From: Hericium rajendrae
Lineage: Eukaryota > Basidiomycota > Agaricomycetes > Russulales > Hericiaceae
Length of the DNA stretch: 64,000 nt
Direction: 5' to 3'
NCBI GenBank assembly: GCA_033439255.1
Contig: CM065882.1
Span: 2,170,001 to 2,234,000 of the forward strand
A model generated the notes under the pieces. It saw only the letters and a program-made list of their open reading frames with translations. It made no database searches and was not told the origin of the DNA. Below are positions 29,602-44,956 of the stretch, in pieces. The position numbers were made by a program, and so were the translations under genes. Position 1 is the first letter of the stretch. Each line of letters opens with the position of its first letter.

Positions 29602-32283
29602 ATGGAGTATCTTTCCCAGTTGCTGTATCCGCTCCTCCCCGATCCACACCAGCGAGTACCTGTCACCGCCAGCGCAACAGTGCCCGTATTCCTCTGCTAT
29701 TACACCCATGCCATACTTGTGCTTTTGGATGTCAAGAAAACGTACTATCTGAAGCGGGGACTATTGCCTTTAACGCTTTGGCTAGCGTGGCGAACAGCAG
29801 TTGATTACGACTTCGCGCGAGGCGTAGCGCCAGCCTTTGGTGTTTCAGATCACCGACGGATGGTTGGTTTCAACTATGGATACATCGTGCGTATCTATCG
29901 ATCGAGACGAATTACGCTCGTTTATCTAACTCGTCAGTACAGATGTTCATGATATTAATTACGCTCCGGTCTATTGAATGGACTTTCACGAACGAGCAAT
30001 TCAGACGATACAGGCTACAGAGGCATGGCACGGCCGGAGAAGCAGTGCCCAAATCACCATCCCCTAGTCCTACGGCTGGACAGCTCCTTCTCGATGCCGT
30101 AGACCTCATATCAAGTCAACGAGGATATGGGTGGTCCTGGGCTAGAGTCCCATTCCACTGCGCGTCGACCCAGATTTTTGGGGAGGGAAAATCGCCAGAA
30201 AGTTTGGTTTTCAACGAATTAATCCTTCCGGACATTTCCGGGACAAAGCGCTTGAAAGTCGCTTGTGGTTCCGAATTTCACCCGCATTATCAAGGCATTG
30301 TGTCCATGGAGGACCACCTGCCTGCACCCCTGCTGCTTCGTTTCATATATATAAAATTGCTTTAAATGCTCAATAAATCGAGAATGCATTGTATTCGACA
30401 TTTGCATAATCGCAGCAGGCAGCGCGCCGCGCGCTAGATACACACGAGGCTTGTAACTATGCTTCTCAGCAAGAAAGGCAAAACAGATGCCCTTTGGGAG
30501 CTGAAATCACAGAGCGCGGTAGAATAAACTCATCAATAGTGATACGATAATAGTACGTCATCGAGGTGGACAACTGGGGAGGGGATCGAGCGAAAGCGAA
30601 GCTGAGATACTGGTTATATGGGTCAGATGCTGGGTATTTCTCGCCCGTTCCTCATCTACAGAGCTATCTGTGAGCACGAAAAACAGCAGTCTCAACAGCC
30701 CACGTACCATGCAGCATGTCCTCCAAATTGCACTCGACAGCACTGGATGATCATCTTGCCCCATCTCCGAAAAACTCTCTGCCGAAACGAGCGCCTGTAT
30801 AACAGGGCGCGCAGATGAGCAGGACGAGCGGCGCGGGACTGCTGAAGGATGGACTTACCAGCCTCGTCCGTATCGTCACCATTTGGCGAGGAGTATTGTT
30901 CTCCCTTGTCTTCCACATGCTGCTTCAATGATAGAGAAGTCAGAAACGTACACGGTATCATAGACACTAGTTATCATACATATGCAGCGACGTTTTGCTG
31001 GATACCCGGCTTCGAGCTGTCCTTCTGCTTCAGCACGCGTACCCTTGATGCCCTTGATCGTGCTAGTTCGGCATTGCTGCAATCTCGAGCGTAATGATTG
31101 TAGATTGTGCGCAGTATTTGGGCCGAGGGGGCTCGTATATCGAGCAAGCCGTACAAGGGCAGTATTGCAGTTTGCTCGAGCTCATGGGTACTGTAGAAAA
31201 GCGGGATCTTTAGTAAAGTATGTGAGTATATAAGTAATCTTTACGAGAGCGAGAAAGATAGCATATAGTCACCTCACATGCGCAGGAGGGGAGGAGGAAG
31301 GGAGGAGGAAAGGATCTAAGTGGCGCAGGCAGGCAGTCGCGACTTAGAGAAATTCGACGCGTCGAAGTCATGTCCCTCATAGTCAGCGATATGACGTGAT
31401 CAAATTCAATTATTGGTCTGAGGACAATCGCCCGATCTCGACCTGACCCGACATTCGCCCGAAAGTCCCTAAAAATTCAAATTTCCCTCCATTATCCTGT
31501 CCTGAAATTTAGGCTCGACGCGCAGTGTTCCCGGAGAGGGCTGATCAGCCCCAGACAATCCTGGACTTAGTCATTGCATGCGCAACAAATGTCTTCATGT
31601 TCGACACCGCACAGTACGTCGTACAGCACTTCTACCCAAATTTGGACATAGCAGAAGGCGACACAATCTTTCATCCCTCCCGGCCTGCATCCGTCCGACT
31701 TGTAGACGTCTTGCTCCCGTGCACTTCGTCTGCCTTCGTCATCTGTGGTGCTATTGATGCCGTCTACTACTTCACGGCCATAATAGCCTGCATCATCCTT
31801 GGCCACACGCCTCGTCAATGGCCACCCATCTCCAATAGACCGTGGCGTTCTACCTCCATCTCTGATTTCTGGGGCTGCGGGTGGCACCAATTTTTCCGAC
31901 ATATCTTCGTGACAATTGGGTGGAAGCCGCTCTACCCCTACTTTGGACGCGTAGGGGGAACTTTCGGCGCTTTCTTTGTATCAGCCGCTCTCCACGATTT
32001 TGGGATGTGGGGCCTTGGTCGCGGTACGGAGTTCTGGTCGGTCGGTGGGTTTTTCTTGATGATGGGCATTGGCGTCATCTTGGAGGGCTTGTGGGAGCAA
32101 CTCATTGGAAGGAAAGTCAAAGGATGGATTGGATGGCTGTGGACTATGATGTGGACTATGTGGTGGGCACAGTTTATGATTGATGCATGGACGAGGAGAG
32201 GGTTCGTTGGGACGGATTTGTTTGCCGAGAGATATAGGCCAGCTAAATTTGTCTTCGACCGCTTGCTCAAGCAATTGCTCTGA
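29602..32283 (+). pseudogene. Wax-synthase-like MBOAT acyltransferase, split by a transposon
   Basis: The 5' part (29602-30155, one intron) encodes MEYLSQLLYPLLP, a membrane segment, GFNYGYI and RSIEWTFTNEQFRRY, ending at RGYGWSWARVPF. The 3' part (31531-32283) resumes with PERADQPQTILDLVIACATN and carries WHQFFRHIFVTIGWKPL and FGAFFVSAALHDFGMWGLGRG. That last block holds the conserved MBOAT His, and further membrane helices follow. These are the features of the wax-synthase/MBOAT_2 family of ER membrane acyltransferases common in Agaricomycetes. Between the halves sits a 1372-bp element plus a 3-bp duplication; removing element and one duplication rejoins the frame exactly. The allele is therefore probably non-functional, unless the element is spliced out imprecisely. 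Substrate is unknown. Confidence 0.88.
30156..31527. mobile_element. CACTA-like non-autonomous DNA transposon (1372 bp) inside the wax-synthase gene
   Basis: Both ends start CACTGCGCGTCGA when read inward (30156-30168 and complement of 31515-31527), with weaker similarity for about 24 further bases. The element is flanked by TTC at 30153-30155 and 31528-31530, a 3-bp target duplication. CACTR termini with 3-bp duplications are the signature of CACTA/CMC (EnSpm) elements. No transposase ORF is present, so it is non-autonomous. A near-end palindrome TTCGACGCGTCGAA lies around 31356. Loss of element plus one TTC restores the host reading frame, which independently fixes the borders to the base. 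Confidence 0.9.
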
Positions 32284-43894: not shown

Positions 43895-44956
43895 ATGATC
43901 CTTCTAAAGTTGGCATTGAAGCCCATCAAGCTCGCCTTGAAGCTGTTTTTCTTCGTCTTCTTCAAGTTACCTCTCAAGGTCTTTTACAACTTTCTATTTT
44001 ACATCGCCTTCAACTCTCTTTTCCACGTCCTCTTCAAGTTTATCTCTCTCACGGCCTTTATTTTGGCTAGATCCATTTGGCCAAGGTAGATTTCGACATT
44101 TCTTCGTTGGTTTCTCGACGCGCAGTTTAACTTTCGTTCCATTTTATGTCAAGTGTAACCTCGCACTCCATTTTCGCAGACCCAGATAAATTGCCTACAT
44201 CAATTAGACCCACCACACCCGCCTCCAATCCAATCATAATTCCTCCGTCGAACCCAAACCCTACACCTCCGTCCGGTGCAGACCCAACTCCGCCTTTGAA
44301 TTCAGACTCTGCGTCTCTCTCGGATCCAACCCCCTCCCTCCCTCCGACAATAAACCCACTCCTCCCGTTAATCAGGACCCTGTTCCTCCCTCCGATGCAA
44401 ACCCCACTTTCCCTTCGGACACAGACGTGTCCCCCATCTCAAGTCCAACCACACCGCCCACGTAAGTCTTAATCTCGTGGGTTCCCTCGTCCCGATTTGC
44501 GCGTACTCATCCTTTAACAGAGCGCCGTACACGATGAACGTACGCATTCATCAGACGGGCATGCCCTATTTCATGCTTGTCGAGGAAGGCGTCTGGCACT
44601 TCGCCAATGGGGGAACCTGGACCGCGTGCGAGGGACAGCTCGTCCTCAAGATGGGTGGCAGCGGCACGTCCGGGCTGCTGCGTTTCTCTGACGGCGCGGA
44701 TAGGTTCTTCATCGTTGCGCTGGGCATCCACAACTACAAGTCCTGGCTGGACATCTCGTCCGATCTCGCAAGCGACGATACCGTGGTCGCTGCTCATCCT
44801 GATTGGTACAAGGATGGGGGTGAGAGGGCGAAGAATCGCAAGGCCCAGAGGGAGAAGGTAGAGACGAAGGATAAGAAGGGCAATACCCTCAGTGCTAGTA
44901 TAAGCAAGAGCGACGATCAAGAATTCTGGGTCACTGTAATCATTGGTCAAGAGTAG
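43895..44956 (+). CDS. Fungal fruit-body lectin with hydrophobic head and Pro-rich linker
   Basis: Exon 1 (64 codons) encodes a cationic, very hydrophobic segment: MILLKLALKPIKLALKLFFF, then FFKLPLKVFYNFLFYIAF and FKFISLTAFILARSIWP. An intron leads to about 100 residues of Pro/Ser/Asn/Asp repeats (NPNPTPPSGADPTPP, NKPTPPVNQDPVPPSD). The last exon (about 140 aa) is a fruit-body lectin domain of the Agaricus/XCL type: NVRIHQTG, WHFANGGTW, LKMGGSGTSGLLRFSDG, FIVALGIHNYKSWLDI, WVTVIIGQ. Classical members are cytosolic, lack any signal and bind TF antigen and GlcNAc glycans, so a membrane-anchored, linker-borne form is unusual. One -1 shift near 44331 in a C-rich run separates the two halves of the linker. 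The lectin call is secure; the joined architecture depends on the splice and frame reading. Confidence 0.8.

Follow-up and report, generated by a model that had tools for sequence, protein, structure and literature searches.

A 1372-bp mobile element, very probably a non-autonomous CACTA element of the CACTG type, in an exon of an MBOAT_2 gene of Hericium rajendrae

A 1372-bp block interrupts an exon of an MBOAT_2 gene in the window studied here, by which we mean the whole 64,000-nucleotide stretch C5:2170001-2234000 of the 46.77-Mb Hericium rajendrae genome (19 contigs). Its short introns and numerous Plavaka and tnp2 genes would fit a basidiomycete. The block belongs to a mobile family and, taking the explanation as a whole, we consider it very probable that a CACTG-type CACTA (EnSpm) element, itself non-autonomous, was inserted in the exon. 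An initial annotation of this DNA had proposed a CACTA-superfamily insertion, a view upheld by terminal inverted repeats (TIRs) that start with CACTG, and a 3-bp target-site duplication (TSD); tnp2-type relatives with the same TIR are also present in the genome.

The element occupies positions 30156..31527, opening with CACTGCGCGTCGA at 30156-30168 (plus strand) and closing with the reverse complement at 31515-31527 (minus strand), as read directly from the sequence and recovered in a 13-mer search. The TIRs are perfect over 13 bp with a mismatch at base 14, and comparison of the flanks places the two copies of the TTC duplication at 30153-30155 and 31528-31530; the 13-bp CACTG termini and the TTC duplication given in the initial annotation are exact to the base. 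An automated repeat search left this TIR pair unlisted, while it is plain by direct reading and from scripts. Exact matches to the 13-mer number 14 in the genome, as against 4 for a reversed-pattern control, and 11 of these 14 mark ends whose subterminal sequence is related. The other three (C4:180984, C7:2178741, and C9:1223724) have no subterminal similarity and were set aside as chance. When one mismatch was permitted, the genome held 139 occurrences versus 88 for the control pattern; those without related subterminal sequence, including, among the matches listed, the one at window position 44127, were left unused.

Reiterated subterminal repeats at both ends, as in plant-type En/Spm elements, are absent from the 1372-bp element. 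The automated repeat search, which also missed the TIRs, returned 0 direct-repeat families in 30100-31580, and the left 300 bp of the element contain 2 repeated 8-mers compared to 1.5 in shuffled sequence (i.e. no excess). The right 300 bp contain 11, compared to a mean of 1.5 and a maximum of 11 in shuffles, and these stem from one palindrome with the TIR core and a GGA-rich stretch.

A DNA search of the genome returned at least 12 matches including the query, which comprise at least eight family loci and one brief stretch of similarity within a tnp2-type element. Both ends are present at three loci, namely the window element itself (C5, TTC), C2:3112186-3113565 (TAC), which is 98% identical to it, and C6:740448-741940 (AAG), and all three of these full copies are flanked by 3-bp TSDs of differing sequence. 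The five other family loci (C7:893472, C15:864461, and three on C10) retain one end or none, and the copy at C10:2052638 has lost even its terminal bases. Six elements have paired ends; four of these have matching 3-bp flanks, and both exceptions are tnp2-type. A further CACTG-type relative at C6:2698605-2703924, with TSD AAT, carries, on its other strand, a Copia-type gag ORF, the scanned part of which matches Retrotran_gag_2 (E 1.3e-18).

Pfam searches of the element's three wholly internal ORFs of 80 aa or more, and of the 69 residues translated when the host frame reads into it, returned no family and no transposase. Capture of a host gene by the element was considered and rejected, since the matches listed comprise family copies and the short tnp2-type block alone, and no Pfam family was found. 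A coding connection is suggested by a related copy at C10:1898995, which matches the element at positions 854-1372 (80%) and 681-794 (74%) and whose right-end sequence then runs into coding sequence similar to the N-terminal region of the tnp2-type gene at C10:2019293 (tblastx, 54% over 145 aa). This gene sits in a tnp2-type element of about 7.1 kb, C10:2018572-2025717. A second large relative, C7:1009802-1019685 (9884 bp), has both TIRs perfect and identical to that of the window element, and the ORFs of these two elements are 57-71% identical to each other. Their Transposase_21 scores, 19.4 and 23.1 bits, lie under the Pfam cut-off of 28.6, and the C7 relative is not among the 31 Transposase_21 matches of the genome profile search. 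When ORFs of the two relatives were compared to 10 Transposase_21 loci, five loci matched the first and two the second of the two C7 ORFs used, and the longer C10 ORF had one match, the N-terminal C10 ORF none; the best C7 match was 42% over 69 aa (locus L070, E 6e-13). The same comparison with 30 Plavaka loci gave no match. Both large relatives also have a second, convergent, coiled-coil-like ORF, possibly for an accessory protein, and these two ORFs share 27% identity over 94 aa (E 2e-8, in a single comparison).

The initial annotation had called for a search for an autonomous partner by its termini, and the outcome was mixed: tnp2-type relatives with the same TIR exist, but neither of the two whose ends were examined (C7:1009802-1019685 and C10:2018572) is clearly intact. 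The flanks of the C7 element lack a matching TSD, and the C10 element has a damaged far terminus, no TSD, and a Transposase_21 match interrupted by a stop, such that a clearly intact transposase source with CACTGCGCGTCGA ends was not found among these two large relatives. Nor does the window element appear to be an internal deletion derivative of C7:1009802-1019685, as blastn gave only short matches beyond the ends (E 0.04 or more). A subterminal block on the minus strand at 31335..31372, some 155-195 bp from the right end, contains AATTTCTCTAAGTCGCG and the palindrome TCGACGCGTCGA (31354-31365). The block recurs in tnp2-type elements, most clearly, with small changes, in C10:2018572 and, less exactly, in C7:1009802 and C10:1898995, and would fit a tnp2-type transposase recognising the short element. 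The link from the element to tnp2-type coding sequence runs through one truncated related copy (C10:1898995) and this subterminal similarity.

On the plus strand, the interrupted gene is predicted to begin with an exon at 29602..29886 (an ORF from ATG, with a donor at 29887), followed by a putative 56-nt GT-AG intron at 29887..29942 (GTGCGT...TACAG) that was recognised from sequence alone and keeps the frame on joining. The second exon is split by the insertion into an upstream part at 29943..30155, supported by alignment with the paralogue C5:2129615, and a downstream part at 31531..32283, supported by the PF13813 search and the paralogue alignment. The downstream part holds the whole match to MBOAT_2 (PF13813; E 7e-14, 52.3 bits versus a cut-off of 25, profile positions 1-84 of 85), which bears out the earlier description of the host gene as wax-synthase-like. 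A Pfam search of the two gene parts upstream of the element returned no family. The frame is restorable, as had been claimed: coding sequence runs to ...RGYGWSWARVPF at 30155 and resumes, frame unchanged, at 31528 as F-PERADQPQ, and the empty-site gene (flanks joined over a single TTC, 56-nt intron removed) encodes 416 residues free of internal stops.

A genome search with the downstream part recovered the gene itself and two other loci (32% and 33% identity), and the empty-site protein gives one alignment to each paralogue that spans the insertion point (31% and 29% identity). The alignment to C3:1929461 is ungapped at that point, and that to C5:2129615 has a 3-residue gap three residues ahead of it. 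Since both alignments cross the site in one frame, the paralogues have no intron there and the insert lies in an exon. Unspliced translation yields a 235-residue product, 69 residues of which come from the element, that stops inside the element and lacks MBOAT_2, so that the allele is most likely null, a loss of function that we infer from the sequence. Any effect on the fungus would hinge on a single wax-synthase-like gene; the two closest relatives found in the genome are only about 30% identical to it.

The history of the window copy was assessed in a three-way alignment with the C2 and C6 copies, in which 1347 ungapped sites were compared. Copy-specific changes number 6 in the window copy, 11 in C2, and 54 in C6. 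Every one of the six in the window copy is a C-to-T or G-to-A change in CpG, compared to 2 of 11 in C2 (Fisher p 0.002) and to an expectation from the 28% share of CpG (p 0.0005); in C6, which serves as outgroup and for which the direction of change is assumed, 8 of 20 such transitions fall in CpG. The CpG ratio of the element is 1.06, otherwise equal to that of the window. Because all six changes are CpG transitions, this small sample suggests that the window copy was CpG-methylated once it and the C2 copy had diverged, at whatever site it then occupied. The insertion may differ between nuclei or strains and may still be able to excise, as the initial annotation suggested. As CACTA excision in maize often leaves footprints, an exactly restorable frame does not imply that excision would restore the gene exactly.

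The element retains the terminal and subterminal sequence of tnp2-type elements, with no transposase gene found in it, and we hypothesize that a tnp2-type transposase supplied in trans brought about its insertion into exon 2 of the MBOAT_2 gene. The insertion duplicated TTC and, without splicing, translation would run into the element and end at residue 235, short of MBOAT_2; the insertion is young, and the copy may have been CpG-methylated and silenced. That the insert is instead mobilised by Plavaka, abundant in this genome with 132 PF18759 matches, and is not a tnp2-type CACTA element is scarcely credible. One PF18759 match does lie about 1.5 kb from an exact 13-mer (C7:2178741), but that 13-mer lacks the subterminal sequence, and the coding sequence linked to the element is tnp2-type. 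Plavaka termini are given in one survey as TGT..ACA or CATCA..TGATG (PMC12730594), and Plavaka was rejected on that basis for the element, with its termini CACTGCGCGTCGA. Several Plavaka stretches in the genome score identically in pairs, which would fit recent duplication. Age bears on another reading, in which the insertion is ancient and has become fixed in the species, the frame being intact by luck or the downstream half being expressed from its own start, for instance from the in-frame ATG at 31597 ahead of the MBOAT_2 match. We regard this as unlikely: the window copy has only 6 specific changes in 1347 sites, which marks the insertion as young, its TSD and TIRs are perfect, and neither half contains a stop, in agreement with the recent insertion first proposed.

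Removal of the element from the transcript as a cryptic intron, by which the gene would still yield a near-normal protein, is a further rival reading, though a very improbable one. The dSpm insertion in maize A2 is a precedent, reportedly being removed from the transcript as an intron in work ascribed to Menssen et al. 1990, which is also reported to concern splice sites within En/Spm termini. The element end GCGCAG|TG holds an acceptor-like CAG, and both a GC-AG intron at 30160-31525, inside the two TIRs, and a GT-AG intron at 30147-31512 would keep the frame and give 419 residues with no internal stops. However, 26 GT...YAG pairs (donors in 30050-30260, acceptors in 31400-31640) are likewise frame-keeping and stop-free, so that frame-keeping alone is weak evidence for splicing. 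No strong splice donor was found at the element, the sole fit to GTRNGY/GCRNGY in 30000-30400 being a GC site with T at -1, and the 1366-nt length stands against the 56-nt intron predicted in the same gene. A more general form of this idea, to which we give very little credence, is that the CACTG termini themselves would constitute a built-in intron, with its donor at CACT|GC in the left TIR and its acceptor at CAG|TG in the right TIR. As the TSD, CACT, and TG amount to 9 nt, removal between the TIRs would keep the frame at any exonic site; if true, such elements could occupy exons cheaply, and CpG methylation would hold them there.

Returning to the non-autonomous CACTA element that we favour, the dSpm element of maize is likewise a defective element. 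Compared to the plant CACTA elements Tgmt and dSpm, the window element starts with CACTG rather than CACTA and lacks the reiterated subterminal repeats at both ends. Soybean Tgmt has, as here, 13-bp TIRs and a 3-bp duplication within a host gene, although it is 20.5 kb long and intronic (PMC2613891). Among fungi, EnSpm families share CAC..GTG termini and 3-bp TSDs with the window element, while those of rust fungi, unlike it, carry a transposase and a TET/JBP gene, according to the same survey that describes Plavaka (PMC12730594). The closest comparison is to CNIRT6 of Cryptococcus neoformans, described in a recent study as an active autonomous CACTA element of about 7.5 kb with its own transposase gene and 24-bp TIRs starting from CACTG (PMC12810828). 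Both are basidiomycete members of the CACTA superfamily with TIRs that start with CACTG, variable 3-bp TSDs, and exon insertion, whereas the window element is 1.4 kb long, has 13-bp perfect TIRs, and yielded no transposase. That study reports no evidence that clearly non-autonomous copies are mobilised (PMC12810828). The window element is of a known kind, most likely a short, non-autonomous member of the CNIRT6 type; among the best-matching titles of a literature search, largely of openly available papers, none dealt with this element or insertion.

The locus is a clean example, from a fungus, of a conserved gene interrupted by a short CACTA derivative, in a genome that also holds tnp2-type elements with the same termini. 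It is a site suited to asking whether non-autonomous fungal CACTA elements move, and it would allow a test of CpG methylation following exonic insertion.
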